A stretch of 64,000 bases of DNA, taken from assembly GCF_018531425.1 (NCBI RefSeq), contig NZ_JAHBOI010000004.1, forward strand, positions 1 through 64,000. Direction: 5' to 3'. The DNA is from Paenarthrobacter sp. DKR-5 (GTDB lineage Bacteria; Actinomycetota; Actinomycetes; Actinomycetales; Micrococcaceae). Of the stretch, positions 11,613 to 31,314 are shown piece by piece. The position numbers were made by a program, and so were the translations under genes. Numbering within the stretch: the first letter of the stretch is position 1; each line of letters opens with the position of its first letter. The notes beneath the pieces are model-generated. The model was not told where the DNA came from. It ran no database searches and was given only the letters and a program-made list of their open reading frames with translations.

Positions 11613-13234
11613 TGCCCCCGCAGCTCAAAGCAATGCTGGCCCGCCTGCAGGCGTACGTTGCCGGCTTCAGCACGGCCCAGAAGACCATCGCGATCATCGG
11701 CGTCGCCGGCCTGGTGCTGGGCGGCATCGCCCTCACCTCCTGGCTGGGCAAGCCGACCATGGCGCCGTTGTTCTCCGGCCTGCAGGCCGCCGACGCGTCC
11801 AAGGTGACGGACCAGCTCAAGACCGACGGCGTTCAGTTCGAGCTGACCGACGGCGGGGCGACCATCATGGTGCCGCAGGACCAGGTGTACGCGGAGCGGA
11901 TCAAGGCCGCCGCAGCCGGCCTGCCCTCGAGCAAGTCCAACACCGGCTACTCGCTGCTGGACAACATGGGCGTCACCTCCTCCGAGTTCCAGCAGAACGT
12001 GACGTACCAGCGGGCGATGGAAGGCGAACTCGCCAACACCATCGGCGCGATGGACGGCGTCAAGCTCGCCACCGTCAAGCTGGCCATCCCGAAGGATTCG
12101 GTGTTCACGGCCACCAAGGCGGACCCGAAGGCCTCGGTGTTCGTGGAGACGAATCCCGGGACGACGCTGACGGCGGACCAGGTGCAGGCCATCGTGCACC
12201 TGACCTCGGCGTCCATTGACGGGCTGACGCCGGCCAACGTCTCCGTCGTCGACTCCTCGGGCAACACGCTCTCCGCGGTCGGCGTCGGCACTGTGGGCGG
12301 CGCGTCCAAGCAGGCGGGCGACTACGAAAAGACGACGACGGGCAACATTCAGGCGATGCTGGACCGTGTTCTGGGCCCCGGCAACGCCACGGTGGCGGTC
12401 TCCGCCGACATGGACCCGCAGTCCGGCACGAAGGTGGACGAGACGTTCACCCAGCCCACGAGCGCCCCGGCCCTGAGCGAAACCAACGACAAGCAGTCCT
12501 ACACCGGCACCGGCGGCCCCGCGGCCGGCGTGCTGGGCCCGGACAACATCGCCGTCCCCGGCGGCAGCGCCTCCGGGTCAGCGGGCAGCGGCGGCAACGG
12601 GACCTACACGTCGGATAAGTCCACGAAGGACAACGCGGTCAACAAGACCACGCAGACCACCAACATTCCGGCCGGCGTGCTCAAGCGCCAGACGGTGTCC
12701 GTGGCGGTGAACTCCGCCTACACCGGTGCGAACCTGAACCAGATCCAGAACCTCGTCTCCTCCGCGGCCGGGATCAACACCGCCCGCGGCGACGTCGTGA
12801 CGGTCGAAAACGTCGCCTTCGACCAGACGGCCGCCAAGAACGCCCAGGCGGCGCTGGCGCAGGCCAAGGCGGATGCCGACGCCAAGGCCGCGATGGAGCT
12901 GTGGAAGAACATCCTCATTGCCGCAGCCGTCCTGCTGGCGGCCGTGCTGGCCCTGTTCCTCTACGCCCGCAAGAACCGGCGCCAGAGCCGGGAACTGGTG
13001 GACCTCGGGGAGCGGCTCGAACCGACCGTCGCGCTGCCCGCACCGGAGACCGTGGCCCTGTCCGTCCCGGCGATGCCGGTGCGGGAGGTCGTCCCGATGG
13101 AGCTGCCGCCGCTGCCCGAGGAGGACATCGACACCCAGCAGAAGCGGGCGCAGATCGAAGCCCTCGCAGCCGGGGACCCGGACAGGACCGCGAGCTTCCT
13201 GCGCGGCATGATGGATGACAGGGCCTCGGTATGA
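11612..13234 (+). CDS. fliF: Flagellar MS-ring protein FliF
   Basis: 540 residues. The N-terminal helix lies at about 20-42 and the C-terminal helix at about 434-454. The two ring-building motifs lie between, including the conserved TKADPKASVFVET segment. A Gly/Ser-rich periplasmic loop at about 305-345 is typical of variable insert regions. The cytoplasmic tail (QIEALAAGDPDRTASFLRGMM) is the FliG-binding helix. It assembles in the cytoplasmic membrane as the base of the motor, and it overlaps fliG by four bases. Confidence 0.93.
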   Translation: MPPQLKAMLARLQAYVAGFSTAQKTIAIIGVAGLVLGGIALTSWLGKPTMAPLFSGLQAADASKVTDQLKTDGVQFELTDGGATIMVPQDQVYAERIKAAAAGLPSSKSNTGYSLLDNMGVTSSEFQQNVTYQRAMEGELANTIGAMDGVKLATVKLAIPKDSVFTATKADPKASVFVETNPGTTLTADQVQAIVHLTSASIDGLTPANVSVVDSSGNTLSAVGVGTVGGASKQAGDYEKTTTGNIQAMLDRVLGPGNATVAVSADMDPQSGTKVDETFTQPTSAPALSETNDKQSYTGTGGPAAGVLGPDNIAVPGGSASGSAGSGGNGTYTSDKSTKDNAVNKTTQTTNIPAGVLKRQTVSVAVNSAYTGANLNQIQNLVSSAAGINTARGDVVTVENVAFDQTAAKNAQAALAQAKADADAKAAMELWKNILIAAAVLLAAVLALFLYARKNRRQSRELVDLGERLEPTVALPAPETVALSVPAMPVREVVPMELPPLPEEDIDTQQKRAQIEALAAGDPDRTASFLRGMMDDRASV

Positions 13235-14247
13235 GGACCGCGGAAGCCCTGACCGGCACGCAGAAGGTCGCGATCGTGCTGATGCAGCTCAACCGTGAGC
13301 GGGCCGTGGCCGTGATGCAGCAGTTCACCGAGGCCGAGGCCGAGGAAGTCTCCTCCGAGATCATGCGGATGCGCCGGGTGGATCCCGACGTCGCCGCCGA
13401 GGTGATCGGCGAGTTCTACAACATGGCCGTCAGCGGAAAGCCGGCCATGCGCGGCGGCCGGGACTTCGCCGCGGGCCTGCTGGAGGCATCCTTCGGCAGC
13501 GAAAAGGCCGCCGGCCTGATGAACCGGGTGACCTCCTCGATGGCCGGAAAGTCCTTCGAGTTTCTCGACGACGCCGAGCCGAACCAGGTCATCGCGCTGC
13601 TCGACGGCGAGCTGCCGCAGACCATCGCGCTGGTGCTGGCGCACCTGAAGACCAAGAAGGCCTCCGCGGTGATGTCGGGGCTGCCGGTCGCGGTGCGCAC
13701 GGACGTCGCGCAGGCGATCGCCGTGATGGGCGCCGCCACCCCGGAAGCCATCGGCATCGTCTCCGAGATCCTCAAGTCCCGCGCCGGAGCGGTCATGTCC
13801 GACCGGGAGCAGACCGAAGTGGTCGGCGGGGTCCAGCCGCTGGTGGACATCATCAACCGCTCCGACGCCTCCACCGAACGTGCCCTCCTGGAGGCGCTGG
13901 ATGAGCGGGACCCGGAGCTGGCGGAGGAAATCCGTTCCCGCATGCTCACCTTCGCGGACCTGGTCAAGCTGGAGCGCCGCGACGTCCAGCAGGTGCTGCG
14001 CGGCGTCGACCCGGCGATGCTGGCGCTGGCGATGAAGGGCGCCTCCGAGGCCGTGACGGACGTGATCCGCACGAACGTCTCCGAGCGCAACCGCGAGATC
14101 CTCGACTCCGAGATCGCCGCCGTCGGTCCGGTCCGCGCCTCGCAGGTCGAAGAGGCCCGGGCGGACATTGTCCGGCAGATCCGCGAGATGGAATCCGCCG
14201 GCATCATCACCGTACGCAGGAACGAAGACGATGACCTTGTCTACTGA
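13231..14247 (+). CDS. fliG: Flagellar motor switch protein FliG
   Basis: 338 residues with N-terminal FliF-binding, middle FliM-binding (the EHPQT-like site reads GELPQT) and C-terminal torque domains. The C-terminal segment carries charged residues (EEIRSRMLTFADLVKLERRDVQ) that interact with MotA. It is the torque-generating rotor subunit on the MS ring. The ATG overlaps the fliF stop. The 3' end overlaps fliH by 17 bases. Confidence 0.93.
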   Translation: MRTAEALTGTQKVAIVLMQLNRERAVAVMQQFTEAEAEEVSSEIMRMRRVDPDVAAEVIGEFYNMAVSGKPAMRGGRDFAAGLLEASFGSEKAAGLMNRVTSSMAGKSFEFLDDAEPNQVIALLDGELPQTIALVLAHLKTKKASAVMSGLPVAVRTDVAQAIAVMGAATPEAIGIVSEILKSRAGAVMSDREQTEVVGGVQPLVDIINRSDASTERALLEALDERDPELAEEIRSRMLTFADLVKLERRDVQQVLRGVDPAMLALAMKGASEAVTDVIRTNVSERNREILDSEIAAVGPVRASQVEEARADIVRQIREMESAGIITVRRNEDDDLVY

Positions 14248-26541: not shown

Positions 26542-27641
26542 TGGCCGACTCACAGGAACGGACCGAAGCCGGCACCCAGAAGCGGATGAAGGACGTCCGT
26601 GCGAAGGGTGAGCTCAGCAAGTCCCAGGATGTCACTGCGTGGCTGGGCGTCGGGGCTGCCGCCCTGATGCTGCCATCCACGATCGCCTCCGCGTCCTCGG
26701 CGGCCACGGACCAGCTGCTCACCGTCCGCTCCGTGATCGCCAACCCGGACCCTGCCCGCGCGCTGCAGGCGCTCGCCACCGGGCTGGGATCCCTGGCCGG
26801 GACGGTGGCGCCGCTGCTGGCCGTGGTGGCCCTGGCCGTGGTGGGCGGCTCGGCGATCCAGGGCGACATCCACCCCAAGAAATTCAAAGGCCACTTCGAA
26901 CAGTTCAACCTGCTCACCGGGGTCAAGCGCACCTTCGGCACCCAGGCCCTGTGGCAGGGCGCGAAGTCGCTGCTGAAGACCGGGGTGGTGGCGCTGGTGC
27001 TCTACTCGGTGATCCAGGGCCTGATGCCGGTGCTCCTCGGCGGCGGGAGCCTTCCGGTGTCCTCCCTGCTGGCCGAAGCCGGCGGGGGAGTGTCCTCGCT
27101 CGTGCAGTTCGCGGTGTTCGCCGGACTCGGCCTCGCTGCTGTGGATGTCTTCGTCGTCATCCGCCGCAACCGGAAGAAGACCCGGATGACGAAGAAGGAA
27201 GTCAAGGACGAGTCCAAGAACACCGAGGGTGATCCGCTGATCAAGTCCCAGCGCCGCTCCCGGCAGCTGGCGATGAGCCGGAACAGGATGATTGCCGCCG
27301 TCGCCGGCGCCGACGTCGTGCTGCTGAACCCGACGCACCTGGCCGTCGCACTGAAATACGAGCCGGGAAAGTCCGCGCCCCGCGTGGTGGCCAAGGGCGC
27401 CGGCACGATCGCGGCGCGCATCCGCGAGGAAGCGGACGCCAAGGGCGTGCCGATGGTGCGCGACGTCCCGCTCGCCCGGGCGCTGCACGCCGCCTGCGAG
27501 ATCGGCCAGGAGATCCCCGTCGAGCTCTACACGGCGGTGGCCCGTGTGCTGGCCTTCGTGATCGCGCTGACGTCCCGCGGCCGCCGCACCAAGCGCGTTG
27601 AAACCATGCCCACCTCCTTCCTGAACTCCGAGGCAGCCTAG
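26541..27641 (+). CDS. flhB: Flagellar export switch protein FlhB
   Basis: 366 residues. The N-terminal DSQERTEAGTQKRMKDVRAKGELSKSQD motif is followed by four helices and a cytoplasmic domain with the autocleavage site NPTH (263-266). After cleavage the protein switches export from rod/hook to filament substrates on signal from FliK. The stop overlaps the flhA GTG. Confidence 0.94.
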   Translation: MADSQERTEAGTQKRMKDVRAKGELSKSQDVTAWLGVGAAALMLPSTIASASSAATDQLLTVRSVIANPDPARALQALATGLGSLAGTVAPLLAVVALAVVGGSAIQGDIHPKKFKGHFEQFNLLTGVKRTFGTQALWQGAKSLLKTGVVALVLYSVIQGLMPVLLGGGSLPVSSLLAEAGGGVSSLVQFAVFAGLGLAAVDVFVVIRRNRKKTRMTKKEVKDESKNTEGDPLIKSQRRSRQLAMSRNRMIAAVAGADVVLLNPTHLAVALKYEPGKSAPRVVAKGAGTIAARIREEADAKGVPMVRDVPLARALHAACEIGQEIPVELYTAVARVLAFVIALTSRGRRTKRVETMPTSFLNSEAA

Positions 27642-29677
27642 TGAACCGCAACCTCTCCAAGCTGGCCGTACCCGTCGGCGTCGTCGGCATCCTCCTGCTG
27701 CTGATCGTGCCGATCCCGGCGCCGCTGCTGGACGTGCTGATCATCATCAACATCCTGCTGGCCCTGGTCACGCTGCTGACCACGATGTTCGTGCAGAAGC
27801 CGCTGGACTTCTCGGTGTTCCCGTCGCTGCTGCTCATCGCGACTCTCTTCCGCCTCGGGCTCAACGTCGCCTCCACCCGCCTGGTGCTGGGCCAGGCGCA
27901 CGCGGGCGCCGTCATCAACGCATTCGGACAGGTGGCGGTGAGCGGGTCGCTGATCATCGGTGCGGTGATCTTCCTGATCCTGGTGGTGATCCAGTTCGTC
28001 GTCGTCACCAAGGGCGCGGAGCGCGTCGCCGAAGTCGGGGCCCGGTTCACTCTGGACGCGATGCCGGGCAAGCAGATGGCCATCGATGCGGACCTGAATG
28101 CCGGCCTGATCACCGACACGCAGGCCAAGGAGCGGCGTGCCGAGGTCTCCTCGGAGGCGGACTTCTACGGCGCGATGGACGGTGCCTCGAAGTTCGTCAA
28201 GGGCGACGCGATCGCCGGCATCGTCATCATCGCGATCAACATCGTGGGCGGCATCGGCATCGGGATGCTCCAGCGCGGGCTCTCGATCACCGACGCGCTG
28301 AACACCTACAGCATCCTCACGATCGGCGACGGCCTGGTCACCCAGATCCCGGCGCTGCTGATGGCCGTTTCCACCGGCATGATCGTCACCCGCTCCAACG
28401 CCTCCTCGGACATGGGCACGACGGCGTCCGCGCAGCTGTCCCAGTCCCGCACCGCGCTGCTGATCGCCGGCATCGCCGCCATCGTGATGGCGATGATCCC
28501 GGGCATGCCCCCGCTGCCGTTCATCCTGATCGGCATCGGCCTGATCATCGCCTCCCGCCGGATCAAGGCCACCGAAGCCAAAGCCGTGGCCGACGCGGCC
28601 GCCGTGCCGGCGCCGGAGCGGGACCCGGTGGAGGAGCTGATGGAGCAGATGCGGGTGCACGCCCTGGAGATCCAGCTGGCGCCGGACCTGGTGGACATCG
28701 TCTCCGACGCCGCCGACGACCTGCTGGGACGGGTGCGGTCGCTGCGGCACAAGATCGCCATGGAACTCGGCGTCGTGATCCCGCCGGTGCGCACGCGCGA
28801 CAGCATCGAGCTGCCGGCGTCCACCTACGCGATCCGGATCGCCGGAGTGGAGGCGGGCCGCGGCACCGCGCCCGCAGGCAAGGTGCTGGCGCTGGGCGGA
28901 TCGCTGGAGACGCTGCCCGGCACGCCCACGGTGGAGCCGGTGTTCGGCCTGGCCGGCAAGTGGATCCCGGCGGAGATGCGGCACAGCGCCGAGATCACCG
29001 GTGCCACCGTCATTGACCGCGTCTCGGTGCTCATCACCCACCTGTCCAGCATCGTCACCGACAACGCCTCGCGGCTGCTCACCCGCGAGGATGTCAGGGT
29101 ACTCACGGACGGCGTCAAGGAGCTCAGTCCCTCCGCCGTCGAGGAACTCATTCCCGGCGTGCTCACCCTCGCCGAGGTGCAGCGGGTCCTCCAGGGCCTG
29201 CTCGCCGAACAGGTTCCGATCAACGACTTGCCGCGCATCTACGAGGCGCTAACCCTGCGCGGGAAGGTCTCGACCGATCCGGAGGGCCTGATCGAGGCGG
29301 CCCGCGCGGCGCTTGGACCGGCCCTGGCGGTCCGTCATCTGGACGGGGAGAACCTGAACATCATCATGATCGACCCGCTGCTGGAGCAGTCAATGCTCGA
29401 GGGGCTGCGGCCGGGGGAAAGCGGCACCCAGATCGTCATGGACGCGACGCGGATCGAAGCAGTGCTGTCCTCGCTCAAGGAGGCGGTGGCGACGGCGGAG
29501 ACCGCCGGCCGCAATGCTGTCCTGGTCTGCGCTCCGGCGCTGCGGCCTGCCATCCGGCGGCTCGTGTCCGCCCAGACCGGGGGCCTGCCGGTGCTCTCCT
29601 ACCAGGAAGCGACAGCAGCCAATGTGCCGATCGAGACGGTAGGAGTAGTGCGAAGTGCCGACCAGATTTCAGCTTAG
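27641..29677 (+). CDS. flhA: Flagellar export platform protein FlhA
   Basis: 678 residues, typical length. About eight N-terminal helices are followed by the FHIPEP-type cytoplasmic loop (GARFTLDAMPGKQMAIDADLN) and a four-subdomain C-terminal chaperone-docking domain. It forms the nonameric export ring. GTG 27641 overlaps the flhB stop. The 3' end overlaps the flhF-like gene by 23 bases. Confidence 0.95.
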   Translation: MNRNLSKLAVPVGVVGILLLLIVPIPAPLLDVLIIINILLALVTLLTTMFVQKPLDFSVFPSLLLIATLFRLGLNVASTRLVLGQAHAGAVINAFGQVAVSGSLIIGAVIFLILVVIQFVVVTKGAERVAEVGARFTLDAMPGKQMAIDADLNAGLITDTQAKERRAEVSSEADFYGAMDGASKFVKGDAIAGIVIIAINIVGGIGIGMLQRGLSITDALNTYSILTIGDGLVTQIPALLMAVSTGMIVTRSNASSDMGTTASAQLSQSRTALLIAGIAAIVMAMIPGMPPLPFILIGIGLIIASRRIKATEAKAVADAAAVPAPERDPVEELMEQMRVHALEIQLAPDLVDIVSDAADDLLGRVRSLRHKIAMELGVVIPPVRTRDSIELPASTYAIRIAGVEAGRGTAPAGKVLALGGSLETLPGTPTVEPVFGLAGKWIPAEMRHSAEITGATVIDRVSVLITHLSSIVTDNASRLLTREDVRVLTDGVKELSPSAVEELIPGVLTLAEVQRVLQGLLAEQVPINDLPRIYEALTLRGKVSTDPEGLIEAARAALGPALAVRHLDGENLNIIMIDPLLEQSMLEGLRPGESGTQIVMDATRIEAVLSSLKEAVATAETAGRNAVLVCAPALRPAIRRLVSAQTGGLPVLSYQEATAANVPIETVGVVRSADQISA

Positions 29678-30563
29678 GGGCGAGACGCTCGAAGGCCTCG
29701 AATGGAAGGTCTTCAACGACTACCCGAGCGGGTCGCGCATCGTGGCGGCGGAGAAAGTCACCGAGGGCGGCATCGCCGGTTTCCTTGCGCGCCATTTCTT
29801 TGAGATCACTGTTGAAATCCCGGACACCCCGGCACCCCGGCAGGCGACCGGTACGCAGGAGTCCGGTGCGCAGCAGCCCGACACCCGCCGCGGGCGGCGC
29901 TCGGCAGCGCACCGGATCCCGGACCGGGCCGGGGTGGCCGCCCTGCTGCGGGAGGCCGACGACGCCGAGGCAGCGATGCACGAGGTGTCCCGCCCGAAGG
30001 TCTCCACGGAGTCCGGCGACTTCGCGGCCGTGCTGGACAGCCTGACCAGCACCACCCGACAGGACCCGGCACCCGCGGGAGCGGTCCCGGTGCCGCTCGG
30101 CGCGGCCGGCGACGCCGTCATGGTGGTGGGCATCGGTGCGGACGCCCTGGCGACTGCGCGCAGCATGGCGGATGCCCGCGGGTCCGCCGCAGTGTGCACC
30201 GCCGGGTCCTACCGGGTACCGGGCGTCGAGCACCTGGTCAGCCGCACGGGGCTGACCGCTGCCCGCGCGGCGGGCGTGCTCTCCGGGGAACCGGTCTTCG
30301 TGGCGTTCGGCCTGGCCGCCGACGGCGGCCTGCAGGCCTCCGCGCTGACGGACCTGCAGGCGGACCAGGTATGGCTGGCAGTCGACGCGACCCGCAAGCC
30401 GACGGACACGGTCATCTGGGTCCGGAAGGTCGGCTGGGCAGCGCGCGCGGACGCGCTCGCGGTGCTGGGCAGCCAGAACACACTCACGCCGCAGTCGGTC
30501 AACGACCTTGACCTGCCCATCGGGTGGGTCGACGGAAGGCCCGCCACCCGGCCCGCGCTCTAG
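29655..30563 (+). CDS. FlhF-like protein lacking the GTPase motifs
   Basis: 302 residues. The N-terminus (about 1-55) resembles the B domain start of FlhF (TLEGLEWKVFNDYP followed by SRIVAAEKVTEGGIAGFLARHFFEITVEIP). A linker of about 65 residues leads to a Rossmann-like region where the P-loop should be; it reads VMVVGIGADALATARS instead of GxxGxGKTT. No DTAGR or switch motifs are seen, though strands ending LAVDATRKPTDTV are similar in layout to the SRP-GTPase C-terminal half. Position after flhA is where flhF is normally found. The GTG start follows AGGAG. It is probably a non-hydrolysing FlhF derivative, and it ends the operon. Confidence 0.65.
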   Translation: MPTRFQLRGETLEGLEWKVFNDYPSGSRIVAAEKVTEGGIAGFLARHFFEITVEIPDTPAPRQATGTQESGAQQPDTRRGRRSAAHRIPDRAGVAALLREADDAEAAMHEVSRPKVSTESGDFAAVLDSLTSTTRQDPAPAGAVPVPLGAAGDAVMVVGIGADALATARSMADARGSAAVCTAGSYRVPGVEHLVSRTGLTAARAAGVLSGEPVFVAFGLAADGGLQASALTDLQADQVWLAVDATRKPTDTVIWVRKVGWAARADALAVLGSQNTLTPQSVNDLDLPIGWVDGRPATRPAL

Positions 30564-30695
30564 CGAATTTCGAGCAGAATTGCGGCTGCGGCGCGCCGTC
30601 TTGAGGAAGGCTTGCCCTTTCAGTCGGTGAATCTTGCGCGCGGCGATGCACTATTCCTCCACGGGAACAATCCCGGGCGACGCAGGGGGAAGCTC

Positions 30696-30962
30696 ATGAA
30701 CCATCAGGACAGGCACGCCGGCTCCCTGCTGGTGTCCTTCACGCACATCGGCAGCGACTGGAACGTCCCGGACCTGCGGATGCCGTCGTCCGGTCCGCTG
30801 GCCGCCCGAACCCGGATCCATGAATTCGTGGCCGGCCGGATGGATGCGAGTCGGTTCACCATCCAGCTCCTCGACGACGGCGGGTTCATTGACCTGGGCA
30901 CCCACAACGGCGGCTGCTTCAAGGTCCAGCGCAACGATCCGCACCCGGCCAGAACGCGGTGA
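30696..30962 (+). CDS. Hypothetical protein, 88 aa
   Basis: ATG 30696 follows GCAGGGGGA with good spacing. The product has no signal or helix; its middle reads LLVSFTHIGSDWNVPDLRM and its end FTIQLLDDGGFIDLGTHNGGCF. It is not CsrA, FlgM or a PilZ domain. It lies just after the flagellar operon and has its own upstream region, so it may be a separately controlled motility-associated protein. No family recognised. Confidence 0.6.
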   Translation: MNHQDRHAGSLLVSFTHIGSDWNVPDLRMPSSGPLAARTRIHEFVAGRMDASRFTIQLLDDGGFIDLGTHNGGCFKVQRNDPHPARTR

Positions 30963-31098
30963 AGCGCCCTGCGCCGCGGACTTGAGGAACCGCCGGAGAA
31001 CTTAAGGAAATCCTGCAGACAACTGCAGGCAACCCCGCAGTTGGTTGGACAGAATCGCTGTAGCAGGAAAAACCGGCAGGACGGAAAGGTTCGGGGTA

Positions 31099-31314
31099 AT
31101 GACCGCAGTGGAGTTCGAGAACGTGTGCGACAAGGCTTTCTTCATGCTGGAGAAGGCCCAGGAGCGGCTCCGTTCGGACTGGCTCTTCGATGAGACCTGC
31201 ACCGCCTACGATCCGATCGACGCCGTCGCCGAAGCACGCCGCCACATCGCCGGCGCCAAGGCCGCACTGCTGCGGCTGCAGAATAGCTACTCCGCCCCGG
31301 CGCTCGCCGCCTGA
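31099..31314 (+). CDS. Hypothetical small helical protein, 71 aa
   Basis: ATG 31099 lies after GGAAAGG. It has a predicted two- to three-helix composition (VEFENVCDKAFFMLEKAQERL and AVAEARRHIAGAKAALLRLQ) with two Cys. There is no transmembrane segment. Size and helix content resemble flagellar chaperones (FliT/FlgN-like), but sequence support is too weak to call it so. It is the last plus-strand gene before the c-di-GMP region. Confidence 0.6.
   Translation: MTAVEFENVCDKAFFMLEKAQERLRSDWLFDETCTAYDPIDAVAEARRHIAGAKAALLRLQNSYSAPALAA

Follow-up and report, generated by a model that had tools for sequence, protein, structure and literature searches.

The gene that directly follows flhA in Paenarthrobacter sp. 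DKR-5 very probably encodes a pseudo-GTPase derived from FlhF. The best explanation is that this product engages FliG without a GTP switch, with a presumed binding partner and a presumed role in flagellar placement, and we put this reading at a probability of roughly 0.55. The window that we analysed is the first 64,000 nucleotides of contig NZ_JAHBOI010000004.1, and its relevant features are collected in Table 1. The ORF at 29655-30563 (302 aa) forms the downstream end of the checked plus-strand flagellar genes, in which Pfam identifies FliF, FliG, an FliI-type ATPase, FliM, FliN, an FlgE-type hook protein, MotA, FlhB and FlhA. It overlaps the end of flhA by 23 nt and occupies the same place in relatives, so that the preliminary description was right to locate it where flhF belongs. 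No csrA was found directly 3' of the gene (30563-31300), whereas many relatives have one; csrA's place is taken by an ORF of 116 aa (30612-30962) that has no match in Pfam, and the single CsrA match in the window genome lies on a different contig.

Table 1 Coordinates in the window of the probable pseudo-GTPase gene, its predicted parts and two flagellar genes of the same locus.
Feature	Position	Strand	Basis
Probable FlhF-derived pseudo-GTPase gene (ORF, 302 aa, GTG start)	29655..30563	+	Purifying selection and same place among relatives
FID-like N-terminal domain, codons 1-56 (strand-helix-strand-strand)	29655..29822	+	Two AlphaFold2 models, VIA, profile match
Conserved amphipathic helix (ALLxxADxAE), codons 95-110	29937..29984	+	Model and alignment; also in FID-only short forms
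Second middle helix (STxSxxFAxLLxxL), codons 121-134	30015..30056	+	Model and alignment
Predicted degenerate SRP-GTPase G domain, codons 141-302	30075..30560	+	VIA
Predicted P-loop replacement GIGADALATARS, codons 159-170	30129..30164	+	Model
flhA	27641..29677	+	PF00771, E 1.2e-233
fliG, partner predicted from FlhF biology	13231..14247	+	FliG_N, FliG_M, FliG_C

The claim that the nucleotide-binding motifs are lost, with GIGADALATARS replacing the P-loop, was borne out, since none of the four patterns searched for the GTPase motifs G1-G4 occurs in the window protein. In the AlphaFold2 model, this segment (residues 159-170) lies at the P-loop position, where strand 1 (154-160) meets helix 1 (162-174). 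Because strand 1 ends at 160 and helix 1 begins at 162, the phosphate-binding loop appears to be deleted, not merely mutated.

Relatives lack the P-loop as well; the preliminary description had proposed to check conservation of the degenerate loop in them. Among 297 sampled genomes of the order of the window genome, 90 have flhA. A search with the window protein matches 76 genomes, 75 of which have flhA, the other (G094) being a match without flhA (two stops inside). The end of flhA was read in all 75, comprising 41 first-read loci (window included) and 34 further ones, and in each of the 75 the gene overlaps flhA or begins at most 4 nt from it. G1-G4 are absent from 41 of 41 first-read proteins, the window's included, and from all 26 complete proteins among the 34 further loci, the remaining eight of which end at contig ends with the G domain seen only in part. 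Altogether, 67 order loci hold a complete protein without P-loop, and eight more are cut by contig ends. In a set of named relatives (the best 80 of 219 loci, from genera including Arthrobacter, Cryobacterium, Sinomonas, Intrasporangium, Terracoccus, Actinotalea and Microbacterium), the P-loop pattern GxxxxGK[ST] was found in none of the 80. One contig, titled Vibrio cholerae strain 35D (L310), carries an actinobacterial flagellar locus and is probably a mislabelled or contaminated record.

The 15 flhA genomes of the order without a match comprise five with a divergent version of the protein, seen in its C-terminal 170 residues, three with FID only and seven with nothing FlhF-like directly after flhA, where csrA follows at once in four. 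The order totals are therefore 80 genomes with the protein after flhA, three with the FID part only and seven with none (n = 90). The three short forms (L198, L200 and L205, in G137, G225 and G278) have 113-115 aa, consisting of FID and the first middle helix with csrA immediately behind, and they are natural minimal forms of FlhF. FID was seen in 74 of the 75 order loci. The exception, L035 (G280), is truncated at the opposite end: its 248 aa keep the degenerate G domain (pseudo-G), and no FID was found in any frame near the flhA stop, so FID is not always kept. Seven proteins (L067, L068, L333, L341, L343, L352 and L355) have an expanded middle part, reaching a total of 1027-2368 aa.

In a sample of 396 genomes from the phylum, 63 have flhA and 15 have an FlhF above the curated cut-off of TIGR03499. 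We compared 60 flhA loci from the phylum, a set without G592 (flhA in two pieces) and with L179 kept unaltered although its N-terminus seems frameshifted. They hold 29 FlhF with a P-loop (26 complete, one cut and two behind a short ORF), 18 complete proteins without it, six that are cut, the locus ending before the domain, and seven with none directly after flhA. The 18 proteins, picked for absence of the P-loop, have G2 or G4 in no case and a G3-like string in one. Fourteen of the 26 complete P-loop proteins come from the three families whose FlhF is canonical. In 13 of these 14 loci FlhF is followed by a MinD-type ORF, with the DQAxxLR start in 11 of the 13, and the 14th ORF, which is cut, has this start as well. 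The other 12 complete proteins are intermediates that keep GxxGxGK[ST] and uniformly lack G2; three of them have G3 and five have G4. No KGGxGK ORF occurs among the next two or three ORFs after these intermediates, the ORFs having been chosen by length, which is crude in G+C-rich DNA. As a side observation, FlhF is missing from all five loci of family f28 (L144, L155, L162, L166 and L167), where an ORF of 85-165 aa comes after flhA; the shown part of this ORF has a hydrophobic stretch in four loci, and the sequence of three loci stops no more than about 700 nt from flhA.

The whole-protein AlphaFold2 model, built on an alignment (A1) of P-loop-less rows only (33 of the 41 proteins, those of at most 560 aa), reached a mean pLDDT of 84. 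Its N-terminal unit (1-56) is strand-helix-strand-strand; a disordered stretch and two helices (95-110 and 121-134) lead to an alpha/beta domain that starts near residue 141. Structure prediction and a fold search had been proposed as the way to find out whether a different family matched, and the answer was an SRP-type GTPase: all 50 matches listed by VIA belong to this class (Z 16.6 to 13.8). The top match is Ffh 7o9f (Z 16.6), and FlhF is represented by the Shewanella putrefaciens protein 8r9r (Z 15.4, rmsd 2.6, 157 residues) and that of Bacillus subtilis (Z 14.7 for 2px3, and 14.5). The alignments to 7o9f, 8r9r and 2px3 cover 157-158 residues at 2.3-2.6 Å. Foldseek returned 23 rows with E <= 0.001, which are SRP or SRP-receptor entries, and no FlhF chain appeared among its 50 matches listed for the model. 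Judged from the models, the SRP-GTPase fold alone does not separate FlhF from Ffh or FtsY, and it is the N-terminus that does.

Sequence comparisons of the C-terminal domain gave graded matches. By hhalign, pseudo-G matches canonical FlhF weakly (probability 44, E 2.4e-4, 69 columns) and the intermediates with a probability of 80 (E 1.4e-5). The P-loop-less families outside the order, many of whose C-termini are degenerate in another way, gave no hhalign match to the canonical and intermediate G domains. Searches of solved structures with the window protein by phmmer and with the A1 profile returned chance matches only.

The FlhF-type N-terminal start that the preliminary description had recognised was confirmed by several approaches. 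TIGR03499 matches the window protein weakly (E 0.0055; 16.7 bits, below the curated cut-off of 174.15) and 22 of the 33 aligned members at E <= 0.01, with a best value of 1.1e-10. When the N-terminus was modelled alone, VIA placed the FID of S. putrefaciens FlhF (9en1) first (rmsd 1.9, 48 of 48 residues) with a Z of 6.6, below the level of 8 that VIA itself uses for telling matches, and dodecins were the runners-up (Z 5.9). Foldseek ranked 9en1 eighth by E-value (E 0.078, probability 1.00). With hhalign, 40 P-loop-less N-termini matched the 14 canonical ones with a probability of 97 (E 8e-11, 51 columns) and the 12 intermediates with one of 98.7, while two control stretches of FlhA gave 0.1 and 0.2. 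A HMMER profile of the 40 N-termini did not match 9en1, its only matches being DNA polymerases, none with an E below 0.05; the profile of a mixed alignment (A3: these 40, 11 P-loop FlhF and three further P-loop-less proteins) matched it at E 1.7e-5. The N-terminal alignments A3 and A4 do not include the FID-less L035. The model of the N-terminus alone was built on A3 and was therefore aided by its canonical rows; the same N-terminal elements appear in the whole-protein model, built on P-loop-less rows only. According to these profiles and models, the N-terminus is FID-like in fold and in sequence, and binding to FliG is predicted.

That an unrelated Rossmann-like protein stands after flhA by chance would agree with the weak TIGR03499 score of the window protein and with Pfam, which matches neither this protein nor any of the 33 members. 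We regard this as extremely improbable, given that VIA listed SRP-type GTPases throughout, that TIGR03499 matches members at up to 1.1e-10, and that the intermediates bridge the P-loop-less form to canonical FlhF.

A complete FlhF elsewhere in the genome had been named as a refuting observation, and searches with PF00448 (SRP54) and TIGR03499 ruled it out. PF00448 matches two genes, both outside the window gene, in frames of 404 and 555 aa, which we take to be Ffh and FtsY, and it does not match the window gene. TIGR03499 finds three matches in the genome, all below its cut-off (best E 6.2e-19). FlhG had been called absent, and none is recognisable: a canonical FlhG query gave seven matches in the genome, six with KGGxGK and a seventh without, and none of the six has DQAxxLR, so that we reject an FlhG elsewhere. 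The six are presumably of the Mrp, CpaE and Soj/ParA types.

The window protein is thus like FlhF (TIGR03499; 2px0/2px3, 8r9r, 9en1) in its place after flhA, its FID-like N-terminus and its C-terminal SRP-GTPase fold. It differs from FlhF in having neither P-loop nor G2-G4 and no recognisable FlhG in its genome. Its G domain is also smaller by about 38 residues (in the alignment to 8r9r, 160 residues of the model span 198 of the chain), and there are probably only two helices where FlhF has its N domain, the second of which (codons 121-134) is perhaps a remnant of that domain. With Ffh and FtsY it has the G-domain fold in common (Z up to 16.6), but unlike them it has no nucleotide motifs and lies in a flagellar locus. 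By strict membership it is no FlhF GTPase, because it lacks the P-loop and scores below the curated cut-off; it is descended from one. The preliminary interpretation is thereby supported in part, namely for FlhF ancestry, the lost P-loop and the lack of both a recognisable FlhG and a second, complete FlhF; that this protein governs the placement or number of flagella is conjectural.

To trace the origin of this state, we mapped it onto a tree built from 86 FlhA rows (a quick method under LG+G4, with G171 left out and row states taken partly from the family code). Forty-four P-loop-less rows, four cut rows and two rows without the gene form one branch of 50 with an SH-aLRT support of 100. Every P-loop row lies outside this branch, whether of the lineages with eroded G2/G3 or of the canonical FlhF-FlhG ones. 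The tree implies at least six changes of state, cut rows uncounted; its root and backbone are weak (support 40, open forks), which leaves the branch of 50 unaffected. Taken from sequence, the P-loop-less state is lineage-wide and has an apparent single origin. The order of events that we infer begins with the absence of FlhG beside FlhF, followed by erosion of G2/G3 and then by loss of the P-loop.

Selection was estimated from 28 pairs of named relatives with 60-97% identity, drawn from 81 sequences each used once, with the window protein in none. The median dN/dS was 0.116 for FID and 0.132 for pseudo-G (maximum 0.52), and 0.24-0.25 between the two, where the linker provides 15 pairs only. 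These substitution rates show purifying selection on the degenerate domain, and conservation together with dN/dS rejects both a chance ORF or wrong frame and a functionless relic. A decaying relic could be read from the loss of motifs, from total loss in seven of 90 order genomes and from truncation at either end in four; with a median of 0.13 and a maximum of 0.52 for the degenerate domain over the 28 pairs, and with the protein kept in 80 of the 90 order genomes that have flhA, it is very improbable.

For FlhF of Shewanella, the available part of PMC11236974 describes that FID binds FliG and that NG binds HubP, apparently independently of nucleotide. By this analogy, the balance tips slightly towards a pseudo-GTPase that works through FliG. 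FID would still bind FliG as in Shewanella, and this contact may promote or stabilise early FliF-FliG assembly. The pseudo-G domain would no longer cycle between a GTP dimer and a monomer and may serve as a fixed protein-protein surface for contact with a landmark, with FlhA or with itself. Having lost the machinery that binds GTP, the protein is probably a plain protein-binding adaptor and not a switch. Loss of FlhG may have left a switch without its regulator, whose nucleotide motifs then eroded stepwise.

Two other readings concern the partner. Pseudo-G might bind another ligand or a polar landmark, the position of the flagellum still being set as by FlhF and without hydrolysis, which overlaps with the best explanation. 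Pseudo-G is about as constrained as FID by dN/dS, and the HubP contact of Shewanella NG (PMC11236974, available part) points the same way; since three genomes manage without the domain and the landmark partner is hypothetical, we consider this reading possible but on the unlikely side. Less probable still, and compatible with FliG engagement, is an assembly factor dedicated to FlhA that works at the export gate and has given up acting on FliG or on placement. The gene overlaps flhA by 11-35 nt in all 80 named relatives (best 80 of 219) and mostly by 20-35 nt in the order-level loci, versus mostly 4 nt in canonical ones, and one genome has pseudo-G without FID. Such an overlap may reflect operon packing only, and the conserved N-terminus corresponds to the part that binds FliG in Shewanella, according to the same excerpt (PMC11236974). 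Our preferred reading remains a pseudo-GTPase of FlhF descent that would engage FliG with no GTP switch.

A flagellar survey (mBio 2023, PMC10746217) says, in its available text, that actinobacterial classes without FlgFG lack FlhF. The P-loop-less branch looks like the FlgFG-losing lineage of that text (Acidimicrobiia, Nitriliruptoria and Actinomycetia); whereas its inventory gives these classes no FlhF, we find FlhF present in degenerate form, which corrects the published view as far as that text states it. Most components were searched there by BLASTP and PSI-BLAST, as the accessible sections describe, which may be why FlhF was missed. We found no report of an FlhF without P-loop in the open-licence literature, as covered by titles and the beginnings of abstracts.

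The loci form a graded series that runs from canonical FlhF through proteins with a P-loop but eroded G2/G3, proteins without P-loop and FID-only forms to complete absence, with FlhG already missing beside FlhF while the P-loop is still present. At about even odds, FlhF turned once, lineage-wide, into a nucleotide-free pseudo-GTPase after loss of FlhG and was in places pared down to FID, so that assembly would start by recruitment of FliG without a GTP switch. According to the available portion of PMC12826062, GTP binding and hydrolysis are required for flagellar number and position in many species, the need varies, and a title cited there holds that in Pseudomonas aeruginosa flagellar localisation can do without GTPase activity, whereas motility cannot. 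For the same species, the accessible part of PMC12713375 states that contact with FliG is regulated by GTP binding and that the GTPase domain aids polar localisation. The need of FlhF for its GTP cycle is not settled, and the answers depend on the species (PMC12826062, same portion). The lineage described here may serve as a natural experiment on it, in which the GTP cycle seems to be gone and the protein is kept, in three genomes as the presumed FliG-binding part alone.
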